Notes under the pieces: model-generated
What the model saw: the letters and a program-made list of their open reading frames with translations, nothing else
Databases searched by the model: none
Told to the model about the DNA's origin: nothing
Origin: a virus
DNA length: 24,573 nucleotides
Virus record (IMG/VR): IMGVR_UViG_3300049846_001136
Span: 1 to 24,573 of that record
Strand: one strand, 5' to 3'
Part shown: one piece after another, positions 3,727-21,937 of the stretch
How the letters are laid out: the number at the start of each line of letters is the position of its first letter
Position numbering within the stretch: position 1 is the first letter of the stretch
Made by a program: the position numbers and the translations under genes

Positions 3727-4083
3727 TTATTTTCCTTTCATGAATTTTGATAAACTATATGCCTTGGGCGGTCTTTTAGGATACTTTAACGCCCTTTCAA
3801 GTCTAAAGAACCTAAGGTAAGGAAATTTGTGCCAAGAATGAATAATAAGTTGTTTAATCATTCCTTTGCGTTCCATGTCCTTTCTCACTATTAAATCAAG
3901 TACATGGGCGCATTCCCCATTCACATTAAATCTAACAAGCCCTGATATTCCAATAGAGTCATGCAAAACTGTAATTGTCCCATAGGAAATATGCTTTAAG
4001 ATGGCGTCATTAAGTATCTCACTATCGGATAAAGGTCTGTAATTTAAATAAAATTGTTCTATTTCAGAAATAACTTCTATCAA
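3727..4083 (-). CDS. GNAT-like protein, candidate counterpart of T7 gp13
   Basis: This 118-residue protein has an acetyltransferase-like layout. Beta-type strands TITVLHD and ISGLVRFNV (about 36-54) are followed by HVLDLIVRKDMERKGMIKQLI (60-80), which resembles GNAT motif A, where an R-x-x-G-x-G/A loop binds acetyl-CoA. Here the loop reads RKGMIK, so cofactor binding may be lost. T7 gp13, to my knowledge, belongs to a GNAT-fold family and lies directly after the nozzle genes and before the internal proteins, as here. The start codon is TTG: TTGA overlaps the upstream TGA stop and GGAG lies about 8 nt upstream. The role is probably virion assembly rather than acetylation (inference). Confidence 0.5.
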   Translation of the reverse strand: MIEVISEIEQFYLNYRPLSDSEILNDAILKHISYGTITVLHDSIGISGLVRFNVNGECAHVLDLIVRKDMERKGMIKQLIIHSWHKFPYLRFFRLERALKYPKRPPKAYSLSKFMKGK

Positions 4084-4897: not shown

Positions 4898-6559
4898 TTA
4901 TATCTCCTCTTCTGGATCATACTCTTGCGGAATAGCCGTAAGAGATGTTTCGTAAATTGTTATATCATCTGAATTATCCGTTACTTCGTTGTGTTCAATC
5001 TTATGCCTAAACGTATACCATTCTCCGTAAGAATCAAGAGGGAATTTTTTATACGCTAAAGCGTCTGTTCCAAAGATGATAGGAAATGACGTAGGGAAAG
5101 TAATTACATTCGTTGACACATCAAGATAGCCTAGAAGATTGTAAGAGCCATTATCAAAAGAGCCGTAAACGGAAACGTTATAATCCCCAATTGGTTTTGC
5201 AACTACTTTAAGCTCCCCAGCATATTTCTTTATTAATGGAAATCCTAAATCTTCATTCCTTGATTCCTCAATAAAATGTATTGGATTGCCATTATCCGTT
5301 GCGCCATACCAGCCCCTAAAAACTTTCCCAAGAGAATCATCTACATAGGTTATAAATCCATCATCATCTGTTACGGCATTTCCATTTTCATCATATAGAA
5401 TTAAAGAATCTCCATGAGAAATTCCAAAGTATAATCTTTCTTCACCTGATACTTTGAATTTTGCCCATGCGCCTACATTCCACCCATCAATAACCATCCA
5501 GCCGGATGTAGCAGGATAATAAACCCAAACTTGGTTGTTATAAGTCGAACCATTTACTGGAAGCGCAATAAAGTATTTATTATCCCAGTAGATAGAACAG
5601 GCTTTATGAATATAATTCCATGAGATTGATTCAAATTCTGTTTTTAGTTTATAGGATAAAGGGAGTGTTTGCCCATACTGTAATTTATCTTGAACTGTCC
5701 TCTTTATTCCTCTTACTCCATCAAAGGCAAGATAGAGATAATCATCCCCAACCTGTTTAAATGTTTCACCCGCAACACAACCATATTCACTAATCTTCTC
5801 TGGCTTATCGGTGGCTACAGGTACATCTGATGGGTTTAGACCCCATACTTGGTCTTTGCCTACAACAAGAAGCCCTAAATCACGAGTCCCAACAAGAGCT
5901 CTTTCTTCCCCCACAGGAATCCTAAAGTAATTAGTTGTTCTGTCAAACCCTGTAGCGTAGTTTGACGGTGAGGCATCTGAGAAATAGAGTAGGTCTGATT
6001 TAAGCGCCCAAACTCTGTTACGATAAGGCTCCATAACAATAGTCTTTGGAGGAGATGTATTAGTATCTCCTAGGTTTGTCATGGTATAGGTTCCTGGGGC
6101 CATTTGAAATACGTTATCTGTTCCGTTAGATATTAAGGCCACATCCCCTGTGCCTGTTTTATATGCCTTAATCATCTTAGTGATAAGGCCTGTAGTGAAG
6201 TCTGTCTTTACATTTGAGAAACTCCCTGAGCCTGTCCAGCGCCTTAGATAAGTTCCATCTGTTGTAAGTAGATTGGCCTGGGCGCCTTGGGGCTCATAAC
6301 CAAACATACCTGTTATAAAACTTGTGCTAAATTCTTCTATAAGAGTTCTCCCTGGGCGCCTTCTTCTTTCTCCTGGAATAACTAAATCTATATTTCTTAT
6401 ATTCTTAGCTTCATTCTGCGCTATAACATTCGCATGTTGCCTTGTATTCATACCTCCAGTAAGATCACGCCTTATAATTGATGCTCTGGAATCATCTGTG
6501 CCTATAAAAGTTCTTGGGGCTACATCACGGCGTTGAAATAGAGTTTTTCTACGAGGCAT
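4898..6559 (-). CDS. Tail nozzle / stabilisation-type beta-propeller protein
   Basis: This 553-residue protein has an N-terminal block (RRDLTGGMNTRQHANVIAQN then RNIDLVIPGERRRRPG) characteristic of phage tail nozzle and packaged-DNA-stabilisation proteins, in which 'GGMN', 'N.d' and 'G..r.RpG' recur. The rest is a run of beta-rich, aromatic repeats with RNRVWALKSDLLYFSDAS, QVWGLNPSDVP, YDENGNAVTDDDG and HKACSIYWDNKYFIALPV, consistent with blades of a propeller. It would cap the short tail below the adaptor ring. The ATG overlaps the adaptor stop by one base (TAATG). No depolymerase motif is visible. Family-level placement is fairly secure; the exact homologue (T7 gp12-like versus P22 gp10-like) is not decided. 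Confidence 0.75.
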   Translation of the reverse strand: MPRRKTLFQRRDVAPRTFIGTDDSRASIIRRDLTGGMNTRQHANVIAQNEAKNIRNIDLVIPGERRRRPGRTLIEEFSTSFITGMFGYEPQGAQANLLTTDGTYLRRWTGSGSFSNVKTDFTTGLITKMIKAYKTGTGDVALISNGTDNVFQMAPGTYTMTNLGDTNTSPPKTIVMEPYRNRVWALKSDLLYFSDASPSNYATGFDRTTNYFRIPVGEERALVGTRDLGLLVVGKDQVWGLNPSDVPVATDKPEKISEYGCVAGETFKQVGDDYLYLAFDGVRGIKRTVQDKLQYGQTLPLSYKLKTEFESISWNYIHKACSIYWDNKYFIALPVNGSTYNNQVWVYYPATSGWMVIDGWNVGAWAKFKVSGEERLYFGISHGDSLILYDENGNAVTDDDGFITYVDDSLGKVFRGWYGATDNGNPIHFIEESRNEDLGFPLIKKYAGELKVVAKPIGDYNVSVYGSFDNGSYNLLGYLDVSTNVITFPTSFPIIFGTDALAYKKFPLDSYGEWYTFRHKIEHNEVTDNSDDITIYETSLTAIPQEYDPEEEI

Positions 6560-7515
6560 TAAAACACACCATATCTTGAATCATTAACATTTGAATTTGA
6601 TTCATGGTATCTATATGACTGAGGCCGAAACAAATTAAGCTTATTTGGCTGGTTCTCTGTGTCAAAGAGAAGGTTAGCAAGTCTCTTTTCAAATATTATA
6701 TCCATGTCTGCCGCCTTTGAGAATTGGCGCTTAAACCTCCAGGCATCTGCTGTAGCGCCTGCCTCAAGAATATCGGCACAATCAATAATAGGGTAATCAT
6801 AATCTTGAACCATTGGAAGCATCTTTGGAATGTAGATAACATCAATAGTTAATGTTGCATTTGGGATATTAACCAACCTCATAACTTTAACTCTGTACTC
6901 AAGCATAGCCCTTGACATAACAGCTATTGTTTTTGCGCCAGAATTTGATGTTACTGTAATAGTGCCGGATGTTAACGCTGATTTTGATACTGAAACTATT
7001 CTGCTAAATGATTTTGTGGTAGATACAGTTGTAGTTCCATTAATTTGTTTCTGCTCATAATCTTCATAACCATTTGAATCAAAACCCTTTACATACATTA
7101 TTTGTGAGGTATCGCTTGCGGATGAGGACACAAAACTAATAACACTTGCGGATGAAGGTTGCTCTTGATAAGTTTTATCCAGAATAACATACTGCTTAAC
7201 AACACCTGTATCATCTGTAGAGTACGGGTTAAGCATAACATTTGACTGTGAATCTACTCTTGAGAGATTTACCTTATTCGTAGCATCTCTAACAATGATT
7301 TCCTTTCCAAAGTCGCTAGGAAGTATATAATCCTCTGTCCCGGATGTTGTGCTAAATGAATAATCAGCACGATTTACATCAAGAATGTTTGTGCGCTTTA
7401 ATACCTCAGCCATACGGTCATTGATATAGCTTTTTATAAGGCTACTCATAGCCGAGGTAGAATCTCCTATCATAAGCCCTACATTATTGGTAATTGTCGC
7501 AAAAGTTCTATTCAT
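6559..7515 (-). CDS. Head-to-tail adaptor (SU10 adaptor-like / tail tubular A-like)
   Basis: The 318-residue protein begins with a helical segment (MSSLIKSYINDRMAEVLKR, about 23-41), followed by YSFSTTSGTEDYILPSDFGKEIIV, the typical 'y.f.T..g...Y.LP.df' strand pair of phage adaptor proteins. A Ser/Thr-rich beta insertion lies around 125-200. The C-terminal helical part (DYPIIDCADILEAGATADAWRF) matches the ring-forming helices of adaptors, and the last 40 residues are extended. Adaptors of this type bind the portal ring and seat the nozzle. It lies directly before the nozzle gene. ATGA couples it to the preceding glycosyltransferase gene, so the cargo block is in the same transcription unit. 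Confidence 0.75.
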   Translation of the reverse strand: MNRTFATITNNVGLMIGDSTSAMSSLIKSYINDRMAEVLKRTNILDVNRADYSFSTTSGTEDYILPSDFGKEIIVRDATNKVNLSRVDSQSNVMLNPYSTDDTGVVKQYVILDKTYQEQPSSASVISFVSSSASDTSQIMYVKGFDSNGYEDYEQKQINGTTTVSTTKSFSRIVSVSKSALTSGTITVTSNSGAKTIAVMSRAMLEYRVKVMRLVNIPNATLTIDVIYIPKMLPMVQDYDYPIIDCADILEAGATADAWRFKRQFSKAADMDIIFEKRLANLLFDTENQPNKLNLFRPQSYRYHESNSNVNDSRYGVF

Positions 7516-8210
7516 GCCGTTTCTATGTCCTTTAATTCTGATTTAAAATCTTTATAGCCGCAGAAAGCCATGAAACTTTCAAGTTCTAAGTTCTTGGATA
7601 TAGGCTTTGTGCCATTAAATAACCTTACTTGGTCTTTATGTTTAGCGCTATTTCTCCAATAGATATCTTTAAAAGGTTGTAGGAATTTAAAGTGATGAAT
7701 AGATATTTGAGAGGATAAATCTTTCCAAGGGTTTGTAATGCATCTAGTTACGAAGAATTTAACAGATGGTTTTACAAGGGCAAGAGGCGTATTGCCCTCA
7801 TCATAGAGAGCTATAGTTGATAAATCATTAAAGTATGGTATTGTTCTCACTCCAAACGCTTCCATTTCTGGAGTTTGGACGGCGAGCTCCAATATACGCC
7901 TTTGGTCTCCTAATAACATTATTTCATCCGAGTCAAGTAAAAAGACATAATCACAGTCTTTTAGAGCATTCATAGCCATATTTCTTTGATTGTGCTCAGA
8001 ATCTCTTGCCCAGTTTCCACGTAATATTTCTAGGTTATCTAAATTAGCCCTCTCGCATATCTCTATAGTATTATCTTCCTGGCTTTGCGTATCATCCCAG
8101 GGCATTGTTGAGTTTGTAACAAGAATTCTATCCATCCATGAGACACTGCTAAGGACCGCTGGAAGAAAGTGAGTAAGTTTATAACAAGGAATATGGACTC
8201 CTATTCGCAA
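7512..8210 (-). CDS. GT2-like glycosyltransferase
   Basis: The 232-residue protein opens MRIGVHIPCYKLTHFLPAVL, a short GT-A start. HNQRNMAMNALKDCDYVFLLDSDE (73-96) follows, with the D-x-D metal site at Asp93-Asp95 and the 'R-N' helix that precedes it in GT2-type enzymes. The nucleotide-sugar-binding beta strands are short. The size is enough for a single catalytic domain. The donor and acceptor are unknown. The start codon is TTG at 8210 and overlaps the stop of the preceding gene by 10 nt; GAG lies 8 nt upstream. No membrane segment is seen, so it should act in the cytoplasm. It is the last of four consecutive transferase genes. Confidence 0.75.
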   Translation of the reverse strand: MRIGVHIPCYKLTHFLPAVLSSVSWMDRILVTNSTMPWDDTQSQEDNTIEICERANLDNLEILRGNWARDSEHNQRNMAMNALKDCDYVFLLDSDEIMLLGDQRRILELAVQTPEMEAFGVRTIPYFNDLSTIALYDEGNTPLALVKPSVKFFVTRCITNPWKDLSSQISIHHFKFLQPFKDIYWRNSAKHKDQVRLFNGTKPISKNLELESFMAFCGYKDFKSELKDIETA

Positions 8211-8884
8211 AGTAGTTTCTCAAGCCAAGGGTCGCACTTTAAACGAGAATCTTTAATAGACTTAAACCAGTCAAGCTCCTCTCTTAGCTTATGGTCATAA
8301 CCCTTAAGATTCACTGTCCATTTAGATAGGTCTTTCATAGAATCCAGAGGGTTTATGTACTCAACTTCACCTGTCGGCACATTAAATGTATTCAGGAAAT
8401 AATCCTTTCTATATCCAAATCCTTTACAAAAGGAATAGCCAACAACAAATAGTTCTGCGATAGGGTATTGTAGAAAGTCATAAATTGCACACATCCCTTT
8501 TGTTGGACTTCCAACGACATCTCTTATTTTAAGCTGGACATCAAAAGGTTGATAAGATATTGGGAGTCTATCATTATTTAACTTTCTAAATTCTAGAAGG
8601 CCATGACTATCCGGCCAAATGTAATTAACATATTTTACTCCCTCACTTAACCACTGGTTGTAAAGCCCAGCCTTATCAATAGAATACTTATCTGACCAAA
8701 ACCAGAAATTCTCACATAGAATATCTGTTCTGCTTCCAACCTCATCCTTTACAAGTGGAGCTAGATTTCCAACCCTTGCTACAATGTCATATGAGTCTAT
8801 TAGGCTACCAAGACTCATTATTTCTGTTTGAGCGCCTGGGGCTACCAATGCAACTTTTTTCCCTTCTAAAATCGATTTGAGCAT
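8201..8884 (-). CDS. GT29 sialyltransferase-like protein
   Basis: The N-terminus GKKVALVAPGAQTEIMSLGS then IDSYDIVARVGN (about 8-40) and DEVGSRTDILCEN resemble the L-motif region of GT29 sialyltransferases ('G.s......g..Id.yd.ViR.N....dvG.rtd'). GSPTKGMCAIYDFLQYPIAELFVVGYSF (125-152) resembles the S-motif region. His198 and Glu203 form the H-x4-E of the VS motif. The protein has 227 residues and lacks the N-terminal membrane anchor of animal members, as expected for a soluble bacterial or phage version. GT42 enzymes have a similar outline, so the alternative is a CstII-like enzyme. No CMP-sialic acid synthesis gene is seen in the window, so the donor would come from the host, or the donor is a different CMP-sugar. 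Confidence 0.65.
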   Translation of the reverse strand: MLKSILEGKKVALVAPGAQTEIMSLGSLIDSYDIVARVGNLAPLVKDEVGSRTDILCENFWFWSDKYSIDKAGLYNQWLSEGVKYVNYIWPDSHGLLEFRKLNNDRLPISYQPFDVQLKIRDVVGSPTKGMCAIYDFLQYPIAELFVVGYSFCKGFGYRKDYFLNTFNVPTGEVEYINPLDSMKDLSKWTVNLKGYDHKLREELDWFKSIKDSRLKCDPWLEKLLCE

Positions 8885-9558
8885 ATATAATTCTTAAATT
8901 CACCGGATAGTTCATAGTTTAAAAATGGAGGCAAAAAAGAAATGTTCTCATTGATTCTTCTCTCTAAGTCATCTTTATCATATAAGCCATTCTGGACAAA
9001 AAACTCCCTAGTATATTTTATTCTATTGGCATCCATGTATTTAAAGTGAAGAAGCGCATTCCATGATGGGAATTTTAAAAGGCCTCCTTCAAAGGAAGCT
9101 CTTATTTCCTCATGAAACTGTTTATGCCAAAGACAACTGCTATTTTTCTTAAATAACCTTATTTCACAGCCTGTTTCTTGAAGGCACATCCCAAAGGTTA
9201 CTAGGTGGTATATGGGAATTTGTATTCTATCTACGCCCTGTGCCTCTATCTTAGAAAGAGACTCTTTAAAATCCACCATAAGATTCTCAGAAGGAATCTC
9301 ATCAGCATCTATTCTAAATACCCAATCACCATCTTGAACAAGGCTTAAAGCGGCATTTCTCTGATCTGAAAAATTTAACTCAAACTTCCTTTCAATCCTT
9401 GTAATAATAGGCCATGACTCAAGATATTCTTTTGAACCATCACTAGATAAGTCATCAACCACAATAATCTCATCACATATCTTTGCGACCTTTGGGATTA
9501 AGCTACGAAGGTATACTAATTCGTTGTGACAGAGAATATTTGCTACTATTTTAGGCAT
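8866..9558 (-). CDS. GT2 glycosyltransferase
   Basis: This is a clear GT-A fold enzyme of the WaaE/TPR-associated GT2 type. The sequence IVANILCHNELVYLRSLIP (4-22) is followed by the strand EIIVVDDLSSDGS (30-42) that binds the nucleotide, then FSDQRNAAL (63-71), the D-x-D motif RIDADE with Asp84 and Asp86, and the conserved WHKQFHEEI with His149-Glu150. The 230 residues make one complete catalytic domain without a membrane segment. The N-terminal domain of the 760-residue neighbour has the same motifs in the same order, so the two are paralogues. It overlaps genes on both sides (13 and 19 nt), consistent with a single cotranslated glycosylation cassette. Confidence 0.85.
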   Translation of the reverse strand: MPKIVANILCHNELVYLRSLIPKVAKICDEIIVVDDLSSDGSKEYLESWPIITRIERKFELNFSDQRNAALSLVQDGDWVFRIDADEIPSENLMVDFKESLSKIEAQGVDRIQIPIYHLVTFGMCLQETGCEIRLFKKNSSCLWHKQFHEEIRASFEGGLLKFPSWNALLHFKYMDANRIKYTREFFVQNGLYDKDDLERRINENISFLPPFLNYELSGEFKNYICSNRF

Positions 9559-11828
9559 TTAACCCAAGCCTTTGCCACATCTTCCCAGGTTGGGGGGGTA
9601 TGAACATTAAATGTATAATTCTCATCATACAAGACATTTATTAGCGCCTTAGCATATTCCTCGTTATTTGTTCCGCCTTTTCCAGGGACTTTTACTCCAG
9701 ATTGGACAGTTTCATTTAATGCCGCAAAATCTGTTGTTACCGGAATACAGCCGGAGGCTTGAGCTTTCATTGCGCTAATACATGATATTTCTTCATAAGA
9801 GCATGGATAAGCATAAACACCAGCCCTTTGATATTCCTTGATTAGTTTAATATGCCCTACTCTTCCATGCTCTGTAATTCCAATTTGTTTCATAAGAGGA
9901 ATCATCTTCTTCTTAAATTGAAGAAGATTATAATCCCCTGATTTAATAAGCTTGTCGATATTGTTCCAGCCATAGAATATATGAAGCTCGGCATCAGGGA
10001 TAAACTCTTTAACTTTTCCCCAAATCTCAAGCAAATGCTCTAAGCCCCTATCATAGCTTGATGCATAGATTATCCTGTGAGGAATTCTCTTTAGCCCATA
10101 ATCTTTAAAATCCTCAAGGTTTATCCCATTTGAAGATACAAATATTTTGCTCTCAGGAACAAATTTAGGGAGTAATGATTTGTGGAATTCTGATAACACC
10201 ACAACTTTGTCTATATTATCAATATGTGTTTCAGGCAAAAGTTTTGTTGGCTGGACATCATGTAGCCATACCCATTTATTCTTAGCTATAATTGGAAACC
10301 CAAATATAGAAACTCTCCAGGATATAAGAGTATCAAAGGTATCTCTTGGGTTAAATTTCTGATAGTTAACATAAGATACTCCGTTATACTCTCCCTCCAT
10401 TGTTCCGCAACCATTAAATACCGTAACTTTCTTTCCAAGCTTTGTAAGTTCACGGCTTAGGTAGATAACAGCCTCTTCTGAACCGCCAATCCCAGTTACA
10501 ACAGAAGGGTCTGCCCATTCATCAAGAACAGGGCCACAGTAGATAACAACAGTGTTTTTATCCCATGTGTTTGGTGGGAGCATTTTATTGCGGGCATTGT
10601 AAATATAAGCATTATCCTGCATATCAGAGGGTATGACACTGAAGAAATCTTTAAGCTTATTTGGTTCTCTTGATTTTATAAAGTTTGCTATGTATATAAA
10701 CTTCTCCGCAAAGTTCTTATCTTCAACAGCTTCCTCAAACATCTTGGAGTTATTCTTTATGAAATTAAATGACGGGGCAAGTTTCTTGGCATAATTAAAC
10801 AGGGCTAGAGCTTTATCATAGTCGTTTAGATTAAAATAGCAATAAGCCATTGTTAACGCCGGACGCCATGTATAACTTGAAGGGTCATAAAGCATAACAC
10901 TATCTTCCGGTGGGTTTTGCTTCATTCCAAATTCTCCCCAAAAAAGAGCTTTTTTCCACTCGGATTGTTCAAAATAAATTTCATGGAGTTTAAGATAAGC
11001 ATCAGGATATGAGGGGATTTCAAGCATAGCTTCCATAGCACATAGCTTTGCCTCTTCAGGCTCGTCCTTCTTAATATGACACTCGGCAAGCTGTATCCGG
11101 CTCATATATCTATCTTCGTCCCATCCTGACTTCTGAATGTGTTTTACAAGAAAGAACATAGCCTTATCTATGTCATTGACGGCAAGGAGATTACGCCCAA
11201 GATACGCAAGTGTTCTTGGGTCTGTATTCTCTTTATCTTGGTTATATTCCTCAATTAAGATTTCTATGTTGCGAAGCGCTGATGTTAAAGACTGTTCCTC
11301 TGTCTTTTTATGGACAATCCTAAATGACTTATCCATTACAAATCTATAATTTGTTGTGTCCTTTGGAAGGATATTCTCATGAATCTTTTTATTCCAATAG
11401 AGATTATTATTATCATTTCTAATAATTGTCTCTCTAAAATGCCCTGCTATTATATTTCCATCATCATCATGAGCATACTCATAGAATGCATAAACAATGG
11501 AAGTCTTCTCGGCCTTTGCTTTCTTAAAAGCTGATACAACATTCTCAGGATTAAGTATTGCGTCATCACAATCCATTCTAAAATAATACTCACAGTTTAT
11601 CTTTGAGGCTAAGAAATTTCTTTTATGAGCGAAGTCTTTTTGCCACTTATATTCATACACAAAAAGATTAGGGTAATCGGTCTTTAACTTACAAAACTCA
11701 TTAAAGTTATAATCAACCGCTATATGAATCTCATCAAATAAACTGTTATAATCTCTTAAAATCCTCTTAACTTCTTCTATCTCATCTTTTACTATGACCG
11801 CTAAGGCAAGTTTTCCGTTCTTAATCAT
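9546..11828 (-). CDS. Multidomain glycosyltransferase: GT2 - TPR-like - GT4
   Basis: Three parts are visible in the 760 residues. Residues 1-165 are a GT2 domain (AVIVKDEIEEVKR, FAHKRNFLA, D-x-D at Asp86/Asp88, WNKKIHENI with His150-Glu151). Residues about 185-370 are helical repeats with TPR-like spacing (for example LAYLGRNLLAVNDIDKAMFF, ALTMAYCYFNLNDYDKALAL). Residues about 425-760 are a GT-B/GT4 domain with the Gly-rich loop GIGGSEEA (446-453), VVVLSEFHKSLL, SSNGINLEDF and the donor-site region SYEEISCISAMKAQASGCIP. The second Glu of the usual E-x7-E motif is Lys688. Such a protein could add two sugars in sequence. It is the first transferase in the cluster; the ATG at 11828 follows the Zn-ribbon gene by 21 nt. 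Confidence 0.85.
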   Translation of the reverse strand: MIKNGKLALAVIVKDEIEEVKRILRDYNSLFDEIHIAVDYNFNEFCKLKTDYPNLFVYEYKWQKDFAHKRNFLASKINCEYYFRMDCDDAILNPENVVSAFKKAKAEKTSIVYAFYEYAHDDDGNIIAGHFRETIIRNDNNNLYWNKKIHENILPKDTTNYRFVMDKSFRIVHKKTEEQSLTSALRNIEILIEEYNQDKENTDPRTLAYLGRNLLAVNDIDKAMFFLVKHIQKSGWDEDRYMSRIQLAECHIKKDEPEEAKLCAMEAMLEIPSYPDAYLKLHEIYFEQSEWKKALFWGEFGMKQNPPEDSVMLYDPSSYTWRPALTMAYCYFNLNDYDKALALFNYAKKLAPSFNFIKNNSKMFEEAVEDKNFAEKFIYIANFIKSREPNKLKDFFSVIPSDMQDNAYIYNARNKMLPPNTWDKNTVVIYCGPVLDEWADPSVVTGIGGSEEAVIYLSRELTKLGKKVTVFNGCGTMEGEYNGVSYVNYQKFNPRDTFDTLISWRVSIFGFPIIAKNKWVWLHDVQPTKLLPETHIDNIDKVVVLSEFHKSLLPKFVPESKIFVSSNGINLEDFKDYGLKRIPHRIIYASSYDRGLEHLLEIWGKVKEFIPDAELHIFYGWNNIDKLIKSGDYNLLQFKKKMIPLMKQIGITEHGRVGHIKLIKEYQRAGVYAYPCSYEEISCISAMKAQASGCIPVTTDFAALNETVQSGVKVPGKGGTNNEEYAKALINVLYDENYTFNVHTPPTWEDVAKAWVKCLK

Positions 11829-11849: not shown

Positions 11850-12245
11850 TTAAGTTCTCGAACAAGTTTTAAACTCAGGAAATTTCTTCATAAACCAGTT
11901 TATTTCACCCTCTTCTTTAAAAAGCCCAGGCTGATTATGCATCTTCTTAAAATTATCAAGTACATTAAAAAGACTAGGAGGAAGGCTTAAACCAAAACGT
12001 ATATTCTTATCTTGGTTTGAACCAAACTCATTAAGCCTAGTCTTTGATATCTCTTTATTTTGATTAATTATTCCCTTACAGTGGTCTATATTTCTTCCTA
12101 TATGGGGTAAATCACAACAAAGAGGAGAGTCTTTTTCGGGGTCAAAATCTTTACCGCAGTTATTACAGTAAAGCGTTTTGTCTTTAAGCCAGGTATTTAT
12201 TACAGCTCTAAATGCTAATTCTTTATTCGGAGTCTTTATAAGCAT
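11850..12245 (-). CDS. Zinc-ribbon protein downstream of the capsid gene
   Basis: The 131-residue protein has an N-terminal helix followed by CNNCGKDFDPEKDSPLCCDLPHIGRNIDHC (about 27-56). Its Cys pairs and His could bind one or two zinc ions. The second half contains GLSLPPSLFNVLDNFKKM and EINWFMKKFPEFKTC, whose 'W-F-x-x-x-F-P-x-F' pattern I associate with small conserved proteins found next to DUF5309-type capsid genes, though I cannot assign a role. It starts 56 nt after the capsid stop, just beyond a stable hairpin, so its expression may be lower than that of capsid. It could be a capsid assembly, head completion or nucleic-acid-binding factor. Confidence 0.65.
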   Translation of the reverse strand: MLIKTPNKELAFRAVINTWLKDKTLYCNNCGKDFDPEKDSPLCCDLPHIGRNIDHCKGIINQNKEISKTRLNEFGSNQDKNIRFGLSLPPSLFNVLDNFKKMHNQPGLFKEEGEINWFMKKFPEFKTCSRT

Positions 12246-12301: not shown

Positions 12302-13195
12302 TTACAGGTGAGCTTGCCCTAAGAACCCAGCATGGTAATGCTTGTTCTCTAAGGTCGCTTCTGTAACCACTTCACCTTTGGTTGCATCACCAGTTTTAGC
12401 CAGTTCACGTGTAAACGGCTTTCTCAAGTAAGCAACTTTAAACATTTCCTCGTTGATACCAATAACATCATAGTTCGTATCGCCTGCAATAGTCGCATAG
12501 CGGTGGGCGAACAATTTGACGTTACTTGCGGCATCCGCTTGATACACATCAATTGCGTTGATTAAGCGTCTGTCTGCTTGGTCGAAGTTCTTTGTTGCGC
12601 CAGCAGTAAACGCACTAATCTTCCTCTTGATGTACATTGAGCCATACACGGCATTAACTTCGGTAGAAGTATTATCCCAAACAAGCTGAAAGTAGTTGTT
12701 TAAGATATTCTCCGTCAAAGACACGCCTGATTGCGAGGTAACAAGAGAAAGCGAGTTCTTGATACCACGAAGCTGACGAGCCGCAGAACCTGTACCGCAA
12801 GCTAAAGAACCACGAAGAATCGCAAGTTCCATGTCGTTTTTAAGTTCGGCTAAAGCATCTGATGCTTCAAGCGCAAATCTGTCATTAAACGCCGCCTGAT
12901 TAACTGATCTCTCAGTATCCGTAACCTGGTAAGCTTCACGGAAAATCTGAGTGTAGTTAATTAAACGAGTTGGGTCAGTTAAGTTAGCATATGAGGCGTC
13001 CACACCTTCTACATAAGCGTTGGTCTTAACCGTTCCAAGTGTCTTAATTAACCATTCGTGGCGAATTGAGTTTGCGGTTGAATTCCCAAGCCCTGAAACA
13101 AGCTGGGTATTTTTAGGAGAAAGATTTGTAAGAACATTCAGCAAATCTTCTCTTATTGCGGCATCATCATATGTATATGCATTTGGACTTGCCAT
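12302..13195 (-). CDS. Major capsid protein, SU10/DUF5309 type
   Basis: This 297-residue protein matches the SU10-type capsid family (DUF5309). The N-arm MASPNAYTYDDAAIREDLLNVL is followed by IRHEWLIKTLGTVKTNAYVEG, then YTQIFREAYQVTDTERSVNQ. A spine-helix-like segment ALEASDALAELKNDMELAIL RGS follows at about 109-130, then the P/A-domain part with VDVYQADA-like strands (AIDVYQADAASNVKLFAHRY) and the C-terminal motif AYLRKPFTRELAKTGDATKGEVVTEATLENKHYHAGF. The 'E.tLe.....a......' ending is typical for the family. No N-terminal prohead protease site is apparent. It follows the scaffold gene by 4 nt, and a hairpin follows its stop. Confidence 0.9.
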   Translation of the reverse strand: MASPNAYTYDDAAIREDLLNVLTNLSPKNTQLVSGLGNSTANSIRHEWLIKTLGTVKTNAYVEGVDASYANLTDPTRLINYTQIFREAYQVTDTERSVNQAAFNDRFALEASDALAELKNDMELAILRGSLACGTGSAARQLRGIKNSLSLVTSQSGVSLTENILNNYFQLVWDNTSTEVNAVYGSMYIKRKISAFTAGATKNFDQADRRLINAIDVYQADAASNVKLFAHRYATIAGDTNYDVIGINEEMFKVAYLRKPFTRELAKTGDATKGEVVTEATLENKHYHAGFLGQAHL

Positions 13196-17161: not shown

Positions 17162-18625
17162 TCAACTATTCCAACCATAGTCATTGGGCATCTTAACCTC
17201 ACTCTTATCAAACTTATTATCTTGAGACATAAAAACAGGCTGTATTAATTGCTCGGCATATGCCATACAATCAATAATGTCATCCCATCTTTGATCTAAA
17301 TTTGGATTAAGTGAGGCTATTTCTTCGAATGCCTCATCATGAGACTCCCCAATGTAATATTTGCCTTGCTCAAATAGTGGTTGAAGCGCCGCTATAATTC
17401 TGGACGCCTTCCCTCTCTTAGCTACCCCTTGGGCGGTAATATACGTATTCTTAAGCTCCGCAAACGGTGGATATATCCTCCTATCATTTGCTTTATTAAC
17501 GAAGCTCCGAAATATCTCCGACTCTGTTCCTTGAGCCGGAATCCCAAGGGATGTTATTATGGTCCTACTAGACAACCACATATTTAACACAGAATCTATA
17601 AACTCTCCTTGCGGCGCATGTGTTCTAATATACGAAACTAAATACCTATTCATCTTCTGGTCTATTCCAACAAGGCAGGCTACTTTAAAATCCGCATGTT
17701 CCTCCTCTGAATAGGCAGGGTCTACGGTAATGACGCATGATAACTGTTGGGGAAGCTCCTTCCACCTTCTTATCTTATCTTGTGATATAGATGTTGTATC
17801 AGATGCCATTGGGTCATTTAGGTATTCTGAGCTAAACGCCCAGGAGCCTATTTCCTTTTTTCTCTGTTGCAATCTTTCGTGAGGCCAAAGTTCCGGCCAA
17901 AGCTCATTGCCTTCTTTTTCAACCTTATCATGATAAGCCCTATATATCTTCTTCTCCCAACCGTTATTAGAATCAAGTATTTGTTTAAGCACAGCAAGTT
18001 GGGATATAATTGAACCTACTATTAATAGTTGACCGGAAGGAGTTAACGCAGGCAAGCATGACTTAAATATCCAGTCGGAAACTTTTCTTCTTTGTTCCTC
18101 TGACTTTACAGAATCATCTGTCTCTATATCATCTAGGATGATGCAATCGGGTCTAAATCCTCTAATCTGTCCTTCCGACCCTCTTGCCCTAAATGTAACC
18201 CCTGTCTTAAGAGTAGCATGAGTCTCACTCCACTTGTCCGTTATCATATCCCCAAACCATCTTATTAACTTCTGATTTGACTCAAACTCTCTCTTAACTC
18301 TCCGAAGCATTTCTTTCGCAAGAGTTTCTGAGGCAGAGATGATAACGATATCCTGATATTTATTAAACACTCCAAGCCATATTGGGTAAATAATAGAACA
18401 CACATAGGACTTTGCGAATCCCCTTGGGGCGGCCACAACAAGGCGCTTCTCTACAAGAAGCATTTCATACATATCTCTATGAAACTGAGGAATCTTAGAG
18501 GTTAATAAATGCCCTAGAAATTGCTCTGCAAATATCCTTATATCCTCGGCGCAGGCTTTTATAAGAGCTGTCTTTATGTCCTCTTGCTCATGAGGGCTTA
18601 TCTTCTCAACAAGTGTTTTTCTCAT
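17162..18625 (-). CDS. terL: Terminase large subunit
   Basis: This packaging motor ATPase and nuclease has 487 residues. The Walker A-like P-loop is AAPRGFAKS (65-73). The strand DIVIISASETLAKE (92-105) precedes it in the ATPase core order. Walker B CIILDDIE (161-168) carries Asp165/Asp166 and the catalytic-type Glu168, and LLIVGSII (200-207) is the coupling motif. The nuclease domain starts CVITVDPAYSEEEHADF (297-313) with Asp302 as a first metal ligand. DQRWDDIIDCMAYAEQL (444-460) supplies the C-terminal acidic residues. Length and all motifs are intact. The start overlaps the stop of the aminotransferase gene as ATGA, which ties cargo cluster A to the packaging operon. Confidence 0.95.
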   Translation of the reverse strand: MRKTLVEKISPHEQEDIKTALIKACAEDIRIFAEQFLGHLLTSKIPQFHRDMYEMLLVEKRLVVAAPRGFAKSYVCSIIYPIWLGVFNKYQDIVIISASETLAKEMLRRVKREFESNQKLIRWFGDMITDKWSETHATLKTGVTFRARGSEGQIRGFRPDCIILDDIETDDSVKSEEQRRKVSDWIFKSCLPALTPSGQLLIVGSIISQLAVLKQILDSNNGWEKKIYRAYHDKVEKEGNELWPELWPHERLQQRKKEIGSWAFSSEYLNDPMASDTTSISQDKIRRWKELPQQLSCVITVDPAYSEEEHADFKVACLVGIDQKMNRYLVSYIRTHAPQGEFIDSVLNMWLSSRTIITSLGIPAQGTESEIFRSFVNKANDRRIYPPFAELKNTYITAQGVAKRGKASRIIAALQPLFEQGKYYIGESHDEAFEEIASLNPNLDQRWDDIIDCMAYAEQLIQPVFMSQDNKFDKSEVKMPNDYGWNS

Positions 18626-19722
18626 TTTATACTAAAAAGAACCTCTATTATCCTATTGATATCACTCTTGGTATGTTCTGTTGATAGAAATAGAAGCCCA
18701 TTTGAACCAACGTGAATACCGCTTCTAATAAAAACCTCCCTAGTCTTCTTGCGAAGCTCTAAATCTTCAAGCCTATCTCTATCGGCCCTTGATTCAGGGA
18801 TACTCTTAGTAAATAGCAATCTTAGAAATGACCCAACGCCTATAACCGATAACTTCTTATGATTATCAATAGAACACTTAAGATACTCGGCCTTAGCATC
18901 TAGCTCCATTAGAACATTCTCATTAACATTCTTTAACACTTCATTTCCGGCAGATAGGGTAATGGGATTTCCTGAAAATGTTCCTCCAAGAAAAACTTTA
19001 TCTGCTAATTGGTAATGCTTAGAGAGTGTAACTATCCCAATAGGAAAGCCCCCTCCAACAACCTTCCCATAGGTTGATATATCGGGTCTTATGCCATAAA
19101 TCCTTCTGCTATCCGTTCTTATCCCCGATATAATCTCATCAAATCCAAGTAGAATATCATTCTCATCACAGTATTTTCTTAAGGCTTCTATTAATGGCCT
19201 GTTGATATAGGGGTTTGAACCTTGGAATGGCTCAATAAATATCATGGCCGTCTTTCCTGGACAAATTCTATCCAACTCGCAAGCATCATACTCAATCTCT
19301 TTTACATTCTCCGCATACACCCCATTCTTATTTGAGAAATAAACTGTGTCATCATAACTTCCATGCCAAGAACCTTTAAATATCACAATCTCTTTGCGCC
19401 CTGTAATACACCTTGCTATTCTAAACGCTCTCATAACAGCCTCAGAGCCTGAGTTGCAGAACACAACATCTCTAAACTTAACATGCTTATTGAGACTCTC
19501 TAAAAACTCCTCATGTATCTTATGAGGATAGGCAAAGGCTGTGCCATTTGATATATCGCCCACAAGCCTTTTTTTAAGAAACTCCGGGGAATGGCCGAAT
19601 AGATGCACGCCTCCCGACATAGAGAAATCAAGATACTTTTTTCCGTTTATAACAATAACTTGTTTGTGGCCAAAATCTACAAGACGGCCTTTATCGTATT
19701 CTGCGTTTAGGACTCTACCCAT
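18622..19722 (-). CDS. Class III PLP aminotransferase, glutamate-1-semialdehyde aminomutase-like
   Basis: The fold-type I PLP enzyme is recognised by SGSEAVMRAFRIARCITGR (91-109; phosphate binding and substrate helix), FKGSWHGSYDD (115-125), IFIEPFQGSNPY (161-172), FDEIISGIR (194-202; Asp195 contacts the PLP ring nitrogen) and YGKVVGGGFPIGI (218-230) with the Schiff-base Lys220. FLGGTFSGNPITLSAG follows. At 366 residues it is shorter than typical GSAM (about 430), mainly at the N-terminus, but the core is complete. GSAM-like enzymes also occur in surface-polysaccharide clusters, where they act on sugar or keto-acid substrates. With neighbouring radical SAM and methyltransferase genes, a modified-sugar or small-molecule role is more likely than tetrapyrrole synthesis (inference). 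Confidence 0.85.
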   Translation of the reverse strand: MGRVLNAEYDKGRLVDFGHKQVIVINGKKYLDFSMSGGVHLFGHSPEFLKKRLVGDISNGTAFAYPHKIHEEFLESLNKHVKFRDVVFCNSGSEAVMRAFRIARCITGRKEIVIFKGSWHGSYDDTVYFSNKNGVYAENVKEIEYDACELDRICPGKTAMIFIEPFQGSNPYINRPLIEALRKYCDENDILLGFDEIISGIRTDSRRIYGIRPDISTYGKVVGGGFPIGIVTLSKHYQLADKVFLGGTFSGNPITLSAGNEVLKNVNENVLMELDAKAEYLKCSIDNHKKLSVIGVGSFLRLLFTKSIPESRADRDRLEDLELRKKTREVFIRSGIHVGSNGLLFLSTEHTKSDINRIIEVLFSIK

Positions 19723-20498
19723 AACTTCCTATGCTCTTCTCCGTGAACAATTCCATTTGCGTCACATTTATTACAGGGTGAATCTTTTCGAGCCTCGAAC
19801 AATTTCTTTCTAAACCGTGTCATATGGTCTGATTTCCAGATGTCAAATAAAGACTCCGTATTTATATTCCCAAACTTAACTTTCCGATTCCAATCTTGAG
19901 GACACAATAGCACATCTCCATTCCAGTCAATCATCATGGAGTAGGCAGGGTAATAGCAGGGATTACTTATTTGGGCAGTATTTAATGTCCCTCCCCTATT
20001 TGTAAGTTTAAAGCCATCAAATCTTGGCCTTATCATAACCCTATCCATGTAATCCTTTGTCATTGTCTCAATAATAGAAAGCCTCTTTTTCTCATACACG
20101 GATATTAGGAGCATATTGATGCCAAGCTTCATAAGCACCTCAACCTTAGCCTTACTCAAATAATCTCCATTAGTCACAACATCCACTTTGCAGACTTCAC
20201 TAAGCAGACCAACCGCTAACTGCAAATCCTTGTACATAAAAGGTTCTGAGAACCCTGAAAATACTACAAGGCCCTTGTAATTTAATGCCCCAAGCTGTCC
20301 ATACAACTTCTTAATAAGCTCAAAGCTCATCTCATTCGGGTTATTTGGCGCAATCTCACTATTTGATCTTGGGCAAAAAGTACAAGCTCTATTACAAGAA
20401 TCAATAGGAGATATTTCAATAATACTCGGTAGAGGCACGCCATCTTTTAATACCAAAGATTCTTGAATAACCTTCTCCAATCTCTCTATATTATCCAT
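19707..20498 (-). CDS. Radical SAM protein with C-terminal SPASM-like cysteines
   Basis: The [4Fe-4S]/SAM motif C-x3-C-x2-C is at Cys35, Cys39 and Cys42 in ISPIDSCNRACTFCPRSN. The barrel continues with VVFSGFSEPFMYKDL (78-92), equivalent to the 'GGEP' SAM-contact motif but written GFSEP, and VVTNGDYLSKAKV (107-119). Later cysteines at 181 (NPCYYP), 199 (GDVLLCPQDWN), 242 and 245 (CNKC) match a SPASM/twitch auxiliary cluster domain. The 263 residues make a complete protein. Related proteins modify peptides or sugars; the substrate here is unknown. It overlaps the aminotransferase start by 16 nt, suggesting that the two enzymes work in one pathway. Confidence 0.85.
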   Translation of the reverse strand: MDNIERLEKVIQESLVLKDGVPLPSIIEISPIDSCNRACTFCPRSNSEIAPNNPNEMSFELIKKLYGQLGALNYKGLVVFSGFSEPFMYKDLQLAVGLLSEVCKVDVVTNGDYLSKAKVEVLMKLGINMLLISVYEKKRLSIIETMTKDYMDRVMIRPRFDGFKLTNRGGTLNTAQISNPCYYPAYSMMIDWNGDVLLCPQDWNRKVKFGNINTESLFDIWKSDHMTRFRKKLFEARKDSPCNKCDANGIVHGEEHRKLWVES

Positions 20499-21121
20499 TA
20501 GCTTCTCTTCCTTGCCACAATGACCATAAATCCTGTGCTTTCGTCCACTAGCGGATAAAACCTATTTATATCCTGATGAAAGTAACTAATGCTATACCCT
20601 TTTAAGATATTTGAGAATATGCTAAGGAGTTCTTTTTTTGGCAACTCATTTACATGGTATGGGTTTGTGACATAGGGCTTATTATCTTTTAACCTTAGCA
20701 TTGGTGTTGTAAGAAACAAAATCCCATCTTCTTTTAGCATCACATTAAAATCAATTAGCATATCTATAGAATCTGATTTCTTTAGATGTTCAAACGTCTC
20801 TATGCACACAATAGAATCATACCTTAGACTTGTATCAATCGTCTTTATGTCCTGCTCAACAAACTTTATGTCTTCCTCACTGTTAAAAGCCTTTGCGTAT
20901 GTAATAGCATCATGAGAAATATCAATCCCAGTCACTGACCCTGAATACCCAAGTATCTTTGAGCCATAGCCTGACCCGCAAGAACAGTCGAGTATTTGGC
21001 CGTAGGCAAAGTTTTGCGCAAAAAAATAACGTGAAATGTGCTTTACAACATTATCATTTGTAAAATCAAAAGGTTCTTTAATGTAAAGTCTCTCAGGGCT
21101 AAGCTCTTTGGCTTTATTCAT
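20498..21121 (-). CDS. Class I SAM-dependent methyltransferase
   Basis: Motif I is ILDCSCGSGYGSKIL (53-67 counted from the upstream ATG), followed by the acidic residue of SVTGIDISHDAI, then IKFVEQDIKTI and the UbiG-like 'post' motif YDSIVCIETFEHLKKSD. LKEDGILFLTTPM is the usual next strand. Two starts are possible. The ATG at 21151 has no ribosome site and overlaps the small zinc gene. The ATG at 21121 has AAAGG about 5 nt upstream and lies 2 nt after that gene's TAG, so I chose it; the domain is complete either way. The substrate cannot be read from sequence; a sugar or the product of the adjacent enzymes is plausible. Confidence 0.8.
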   Translation of the reverse strand: MNKAKELSPERLYIKEPFDFTNDNVVKHISRYFFAQNFAYGQILDCSCGSGYGSKILGYSGSVTGIDISHDAITYAKAFNSEEDIKFVEQDIKTIDTSLRYDSIVCIETFEHLKKSDSIDMLIDFNVMLKEDGILFLTTPMLRLKDNKPYVTNPYHVNELPKKELLSIFSNILKGYSISYFHQDINRFYPLVDESTGFMVIVARKRS

Positions 21122-21123
21122 TT

Positions 21124-21330
21124 CTACCTTTCCATAAGACAGTTTAGACATATAATCATATAGCTTTTGTTGTGTTTATAACAAAAATCCCAGTTGTTTA
21201 CTGACTTGTAAATAATCTTTGTGTACAAAACCCTCCGCCTCGTCCATCTTTTTGCGCAATCAACACAAACACATGCCGGTTCATGGCCAGGGTTTCTACC
21301 TCTCTTAACTTCCTTATCCTTTCTTCCCAA
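21124..21330 (-). CDS. Small zinc-binding-like protein (68 aa)
   Basis: The frame has a basic N-terminus and cysteines spaced as CVCVDC (20-25) and then C-x2-H ... C-x2-C at Cys50, His53, Cys61 and Cys64, enough for one or two zinc sites. I recognise no family. The start is TTG, preceded by GGGGAG at 7 nt, a better ribosome site than most genes here, so a TTG start is credible. It overlaps the end of the FkbM gene by 17 nt and ends 2 nt before the preferred start of the methyltransferase, fitting the operon tightly. The function is unknown. Confidence 0.6.
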   Translation of the reverse strand: MGRKDKEVKRGRNPGHEPACVCVDCAKRWTRRRVLYTKIIYKSVNNWDFCYKHNKSYMIICLNCLMER

Positions 21331-21937
21331 TCACAAGCTCCCCATAGTTAAAGAACTCAAAGCCATGCTTTATAAGACTATTAAGAATCGCAGGCCGAAC
21401 TTTAAACTCATCATGTATTTCTATTGCGATAGAACCGACATTTACAAGCCATGAATCTTCAAGAAACAACTCTTTCTCTCCGCCTTCTATGTCAATTTTG
21501 ACAATATCAGCCCCATCTCTTACTAACTCATGTATCGAATACCCTTGGATTGTTTGGTCCTCGGATTCCTTGGCGGGCTTGGCATAGTATGACCATTCTT
21601 TTGAGTCCCTAAAATCACGCCCAATAGATAGTAGACAGTTTTCACTCCACACCCCGCCATGAATTAACTTGGCATTTCTTCCTTCAAGGTTCATTTTGGC
21701 AATATTATAATTATCTCTGTCAATTTCAAGCGCAACTACACTAGAATTCTTAAACTCTTCCAAAAAGAACACGGATGCGAAGCCCACATTGGCCCCGCAA
21801 TCGAGGATTTTTAGATTTTGGCCCGCCTCAAACAACTCCACTATCGGCTGATACTGCCTCTCAATAAAAACTTGGTGCCAGCTACTTAAGTCCGACGCAG
21901 GCGGCGTTCGGCACAGCAACTTTCGGCCACTCTCCAT
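21314..21937 (-). CDS. FkbM-family methyltransferase
   Basis: The 207-residue protein shows the FkbM methyltransferase landmarks: motif I ILDCGANVGFASVFFLEEF (44-62), the acidic residue in VVALEIDRDNYNIAKMNL (67-84), and DIVKIDIEGGEKELF (144-158), whose 'K-I-D-I-E-G-x-E' is diagnostic for the family. SIAIEIHDEF follows. FkbM enzymes O-methylate sugars or polyketide hydroxyls. Here the substrate is presumably a glycan, given the transferases downstream (inference). It is the first gene after the 308-bp non-coding region and has the strongest ribosome site in the window (AGGAGG with ATG about 7-11 nt on), so it may be well translated. Confidence 0.85.
   Translation of the reverse strand: MESGRKLLCRTPPASDLSSWHQVFIERQYQPIVELFEAGQNLKILDCGANVGFASVFFLEEFKNSSVVALEIDRDNYNIAKMNLEGRNAKLIHGGVWSENCLLSIGRDFRDSKEWSYYAKPAKESEDQTIQGYSIHELVRDGADIVKIDIEGGEKELFLEDSWLVNVGSIAIEIHDEFKVRPAILNSLIKHGFEFFNYGELVIGKKG

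Follow-up and report, generated by a model that had tools for sequence, protein, structure and literature searches.

Glycosylation of phage virions is documented mainly for actinobacterial phages. Among the closest described systems, mycobacteriophage Corndog carries an O-methyltransferase gene and three glycosyltransferase (GT) genes (gp35–gp38) in its structural operon, and its authors suspected a modification of the capsid because capsid peptides escaped detection (PMC4351075). Glycans on the capsid of phage Che8 were reported later, according to the passages of PMC11256854 and PMC12619734 that cite this work (Freeman et al. 2023). Here, we describe a locus of four overlapping GT genes in an uncultured podovirus, the IMG/VR virus record IMGVR_UViG_3300049846_001136, which was analysed over its whole length of 24,573 bases (the window, to which all positions refer). 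The locus probably serves virion glycosylation, with a two-headed enzyme, GTa, starting a glycan on a virion protein and the enzymes of a neighbouring gene slot extending and decorating it.

The late genes of the window lie on the minus strand in podovirus order: small terminase (TerS), large terminase (TerL), portal, scaffold, major capsid protein (MCP, PHROG 1328) and tail genes. By capsid sequence, the nearest named phages are metagenomic genomes from Manatee Spring (45% and 36%), followed by the remoter PaP3/Bruynoghevirus phages (31%). The MCP gene (12302–13195, minus strand), whose product is the candidate acceptor by profile match, synteny and distance correlation with GTa, is followed by a gene for a Cys-containing protein of 131 residues (g131), the four GT genes and an adaptor or head–tail gene (6559–7515, minus strand), assigned by synteny, which closes the slot. 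The GT open reading frames (ORFs), namely GTa (9546–11828), GTb (8866–9558), a GT29-type gene (8201–8884) and GTd (7512–8210), all on the minus strand, overlap successively by 13, 19 and 10 nt, with 4 nt shared between GTd and the adaptor gene. Because of these overlaps with each other and with the adaptor gene, the gene anatomy makes it probable that the four GT genes and the structural genes share a transcript. The arrangement is not due to chance, since the identical order recurs in dozens of contigs; the related contig L033 matches GTa, GTb, GT29, GTd and the adaptor one gene to one gene with 41–68% identity. A previous sequence-only reading of this DNA had placed four overlapping GT genes at 7512–11828 between capsid and adaptor, and both ORFs and order were confirmed. 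It had also called three GT2-type domains, one GT29-like enzyme and one GT4 domain, all without membrane segments; no such segment was found (0/4 proteins), and the domain calls held, with a weak GT2 match for GTd and a sub-threshold GT29 match whose fold was confirmed by AlphaFold.

GTa is a near-universal core gene of the lineage and not cargo. Contigs selected by their portal gene are a fair sample because GTa had no role in choosing them; counting only contigs that reach far enough, GTa is located 385–890 bp after the MCP gene in 34 of 35, and in 28 of 29 clusters after dereplication at 95% MCP identity. The order MCP, g131, GTa, variable slot, adaptor is kept in relatives found via capsid, portal or GTa. 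Two relatives with an empty slot (L036, L046) nevertheless retain GTa, which makes it the core of the locus and the remaining genes optional. Pairwise GTa and MCP distances correlate with r 0.90 over 62 loci and 0.71 within close relatives. The partial correlation is 0.49–0.53 when controlling for portal, TerL or g131, a value not reached in any of 999 permutations, and GTa follows capsid divergence no worse than other structural genes do. A GT2 domain was found in none of 13 capsid-family records, which had been selected for being without GTa.

The enzyme comprises 760 residues, with a GT-A/GT2 domain at about residues 1–175, TPR helices at 177–416 and a GT-B/GT4 domain at 424–760, as assigned by Pfam, PHROG and NCBIfam profiles, AlphaFold and Foldseek. 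The N-terminal GT2 domain stays below the Pfam cut-off but matches PHROG 13126, which carries the name beta-1,4-glycosyltransferase, with an E value of 1e-27, while the GT4 domain exceeds the cut-off of Pfam Glycos_transf_1 (31.5 vs 26.4 bits). The AlphaFold model, with a mean predicted local distance difference test score (pLDDT) of 94.4, consists of a GT-A domain, a TPR superhelix and a GT-B domain, and the GT4 half has the GT-B fold (VIA Z 27–30, root-mean-square deviation (rmsd) 2.5–3, about 300 residues). The top Foldseek match of this model is the SunS/ThuS group of peptide glycosyltransferases (7msp_B: TMt 0.69, rmsd 3.0, 287 columns); SunS (TIGR04195) is also its best NCBIfam match, although at 30.4 bits, and 29.9 bits for GTb, far under the 350-bit cut-off. 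The best PDB sequence match of the N-terminal domain, and also of GTb, is the flagellin glycosyltransferase GmaR. The best PDB matches of GTa by sequence and by fold, GmaR and SunS/ThuS, are thus polypeptide-acting enzymes. Foldseek additionally returned OGT and SPINDLY, which combine TPR and GT-B domains, with rmsd near 20 Å and low TM-scores, so these were rejected as a likeness of layout and not homology. Both heads are probably active, since the GT-A DxD (D86/D88) and, in GT4, glycine-rich and acidic positions are invariant in 57–58 GTa homologs of 28–68% identity, with E680 as a candidate catalytic residue of GT4. The match to GmaR could also be read as pointing to another protein acceptor, be it a host protein such as flagellin, modified during host takeover, or one that the phage makes but does not build into its virion; we consider this improbable given the late structural position of GTa, its co-inheritance with the capsid and the many sugar genes of the slot, a large outlay for a late host takeover.

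Relatives of GTa were also observed in other settings; no GTa homolog turned up in a named isolate. Filamentous cyanobacteria (L131–L142, L146, around 10001–11071) bear stand-alone genes that are 44–48% identical to its GT4 half, and their neighbourhoods are unrelated and gave no hint of an acceptor. In two records (L143, 1–1487; L031, 5640–7208), namely MW202497 and a contig assigned by binning to Candidatus Taylorbacteria, a GroEL gene lies beside a GTa homolog; the binned contig may in fact be a piece of a phage genome placed in the wrong bin.

The slot between GTa and the adaptor (slot B) holds 0–12 genes across relatives. Among 90 representative slot proteins, Pfam identified GT2 (21), radical S-adenosylmethionine (SAM) (8), epimerase (6), GDP-mannose dehydratase (4), DegT aminotransferase (4), LicD (3), GT10 (3), GT7 (3), formyltransferase (2) and methyltransferase domains. 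GTb, the GT29-type gene and GTd are one filling of this exchangeable slot; the cargo set proposed in the sequence-only reading therefore stands for these three genes but not for GTa. That the set consists of plain accessory genes at a tolerant insertion site, random morons without a common acceptor, would agree with the hypervariable slot and with the rarity of a second gene cluster described below (cluster A). However, GTa does not vary in this way, its catalytic residues are invariant at 28–68% identity, and the slot genes are heavily skewed towards glycan chemistry, so this explanation is very unlikely. As a further observation, the slot of L039 (6511–13844) combines an aminotransferase gene and a two-gene thiamine pyrophosphate transketolase with two genes of the radical-SAM type, of which one includes a B12-binding domain; together they may form a phage pathway to an unusual branched or amino sugar.

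Regarding the accessory genes of the window, GTb encodes a single-domain GT2 of the GmaR/SunS superfamily (PF00535, 2.9e-12; GmaR in the PDB, 8.4e-12), with homologs in L033 and L056. The GT29-type protein of 227 residues misses the gathering score of PF00777 (19.6 vs 23 bits), which a slot homolog in L057 clears with 42.5 bits. Its AlphaFold model (pLDDT 83.5) confirmed a sialyltransferase fold at the level of prediction: the matches reach VIA Z 13.5 and rmsd 3.2 over 185 aligned residues and are almost exclusively sialyltransferases, as is every one of the 23 best rows, with ST8SiaIII, ST6Gal1 and Cst among the matches. Sialylmotif-like L- and S-motif positions are kept in 22 homologs, and His198 (HKLREE, VS motif) is invariant. 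As a single query the protein found no match in phages and none in IMG/VR, but an alignment-based search with the family recovered 37 loci. Large viral contigs often carry GT29-type genes (L214–L249), several of which are fused to other domains (L226, L227, L229–L231). The donor of the window enzyme could be any sugar activated by cytidine monophosphate (CMP). A cytidylyltransferase gene (PF02348) in the slot of relative L058 is only suggestive of CMP-sialic acid; no cytidylyltransferase occurs among the annotated genes of the window fragment, and PF02348 gave no match in the 34 records tested, so the host probably supplies the CMP-sugar in most relatives. Finally, GTd, which starts with TTG, is a GT2-like enzyme of the commonest accessory type in the slot. 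Its Pfam GT2 match is below cut-off, DxD motifs are present, and L002 has a gene of this type that scores above the cut-off; 33 similar ORFs were found in relatives, whereas GTd as a single query matched only in L033.

A transmembrane-like segment was predicted in 2 of 90 close slot proteins and in none of 77 GTa homologs. In a profile screen of 24 near-complete relatives, in which control genomes gave the expected signals, GT2 was found in all 24, while the initiating phosphoglycosyltransferase (PF02397) and the Wzx flippase (PF01943) were each found in 0/24. The thymidylate-synthase-type hydroxymethylase (PF00303) was likewise found in 0/24, with a control signal in 9/14 and with the window itself being a fragment. 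Tet_JBP, a further marker of DNA modification, was not detected; as the control gave no signal either, this result was not counted. The near-absence of membrane segments and the lack of these three families in the 24 relatives make the cytosol the most likely place where the glycan is both assembled and used.

This pattern bears on two further explanations. The enzymes might alter a glycan of the host surface or the soluble precursor of such a glycan (lipopolysaccharide (LPS) core, capsule precursor), for instance in superinfection exclusion or in the release of progeny from receptors. The superfamily of the N-terminal half of GTa includes lipooligosaccharide beta-1,4-glucosyltransferases (PHROG 13126; PaBG annotation), the mix of sugar-nucleotide and GT genes resembles O-antigen loci, and soluble enzymes could act at the cytosolic face of the lipid A-core. 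Nevertheless, we regard this as unlikely, since the 24 relatives have neither the PF02397 initiator nor the PF01943 flippase, membrane segments are nearly absent, the GT genes sit in the late structural operon adjoining the capsid gene, and GTa is near-universal in a divergent lineage although the added sugars vary. Glycosylation of phage DNA (hypermodified bases) appears still more remote: GTs with this function are known (Pyle 2024, as cited in PMC12619734), and the radical-SAM and aminotransferase genes could serve base tailoring, but no thymidylate-synthase or hydroxymethylase homolog occurs in the near-complete relatives, the closest folds of GTa are peptide transferases, and the genes lie among late structural and not replication genes.

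Glycosylation of a virion protein therefore accommodates the evidence better, and of the two options offered by the sequence-only reading, virion glycosylation or remodelling of a host precursor, the former is the better supported and the latter the less likely. A phage-owned acceptor fits better than changing host glycans because GTa is near-universal while the added sugars change; the acceptor is most likely brought by the phage, with a virion protein as the most economical choice. We infer that the capsid protein is the likeliest candidate and that a protein of the tail or of head completion is possible. In the proposed mechanism, GTa expressed from the late operon would recognise this virion protein, one of its GT domains would attach the first sugar to the acceptor held and presented via the TPR superhelix, and the other would add a second sugar. 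Enzymes of the exchangeable slot would then extend and decorate the glycan; in the window, GTb and GTd would add further sugars, the GT29-type enzyme would cap the chain with an acidic sugar that the host pool supplies in CMP-activated form, and cluster A would methylate and aminate the glycan. All steps would take place in the cytosol, on assembling particles. The order of sugar addition, the sugar identities and the benefit, whether particle masking, stability or adsorption, are likewise what we infer.

Several observations weigh against this interpretation. The SunS/GmaR superfamily also includes LPS-core glucosyltransferases, so homology alone cannot fix the acceptor. Linkage between neighbouring genes would by itself give the adjacency and co-inheritance of GTa and capsid, and would add to the correlation. 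The exceptional contig L113, whose MCP is 72% identical, is without GTa and has tail-like genes directly after g131, so GTa is dispensable or movable, and in some relatives (MW202497, L117, L126) the GTa homolog is located away from the capsid gene. Finally, no MCP column conserved in GTa carriers differs in GTa-less L113, and no acceptor was identified in this comparison.

Cluster A is situated at a second site (18622–21937). It is composed, on the minus strand, of genes encoding a class-III, GSA-aminomutase-like aminotransferase (18622–19722; Pfam 2.1e-33), a radical SAM/SPASM protein (19707–20498; profile matches), a class I methyltransferase (20498–21151; profile match) and an FkbM-type methyltransferase (21314–21937; PF05050 and TIGR01444 above cut-off). 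FkbM-type methyltransferases typically O-methylate sugars. Of the five genes previously assigned to the cluster these four are supported, whereas the 68-residue TTG ORF with Cys-pair motifs at 21124–21330 is doubtful: relatives lack a homolog, and it may be no real gene. A simple correlation between the two clusters failed: cluster A occurs in only 1 of 21 relatives with the region visible (L002, at the TerS–TerL position), against 34 of 35 contigs for GTa, and slot B does not need cluster A to be present. A link to the accessory genes, and not to GTa, is anecdotal, in that L057 carries an orthologous pair of radical-SAM and class-III aminotransferase genes within slot B, beside its GT29-type gene; this pair indicates that both sites share one glycan-gene pool. 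In L194, a GTd-like gene lies upstream of TerS, which is one more sign of a second insertion site for glycan genes on the TerS/TerL side.

Two other genes of the window deserve mention. The g131 gene (11850–12245, minus strand) lies directly behind the capsid gene in some 50 relatives and, on this conservation, is read as a conserved gene of the structural module; it stands outside the glycan set because it also occurs in relatives lacking GT genes. Among the tail genes, 3727–4083 encodes a GNAT-looking protein of 118 residues, which has no Pfam match and is kept in L033, L046, L047, L055 and L061.

More broadly, and tentatively, this lineage of uncultured podoviruses may possess a modular capsid-glycan system in which a fixed two-headed TPR glycosyltransferase starts a glycan on the shell and a cassette of sugar genes is swapped in. 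If so, the cassette, including its sialyltransferase-type caps, would give each phage its own surface 'serotype', similar to O-antigen variation in bacteria. Small tailed phages would then have glycan coats as a fundamental trait of their surface, and one that evolves; how the particles adsorb, how stable they are and how antibodies or predators recognise them would all be affected.

When compared to known systems, GT sets in phage structural operons are already known in kind from mycobacteriophages. Like the genes described here, the mycobacteriophage sets combine soluble GTs and an O-methyltransferase in a late structural operon; their likely or reported acceptor is the capsid. They belong to another phage type, and our locus differs in its layout: one GT2-TPR-GT4 enzyme has a fixed place after the capsid gene, and a hypervariable slot comes next. 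A tblastn search of GTa against 50,697 phage records gave 17 records and no mycobacteriophage, so that, for GTa and the GT29-type protein, the two queries tried, the window enzymes do not appear to be homologs of the mycobacteriophage ones. SunS/ThuS (TIGR04195; 7MSN, 7MSK) share with GTa a TPR-like helical domain placed after a GT-A domain, but GTa has an additional GT4 domain, no bacteriocin context as far as the ORF list shows, and a score far below the family cut-off; its resemblance and that of GTb to GmaR (22AO) is remote. The 227-residue enzyme shares with GT29 sialyltransferases (ST8SiaIII, ST6Gal1) the fold, segments similar to the L and S motifs and the invariant His, and differs in being soluble, short and below the Pfam cut-off. 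Similar in organization is the Manatee Spring podovirus MW202718, in which the MCP gene, one further gene and a GTa homolog (33%) are followed by more GTs and methyltransferases; its record is annotated gene by gene only and describes no system. What is new in the present locus is a GT2-TPR-GT4 enzyme fixed lineage-wide behind a podovirus capsid gene, together with a hypervariable slot and a slot member of sialyltransferase fold.

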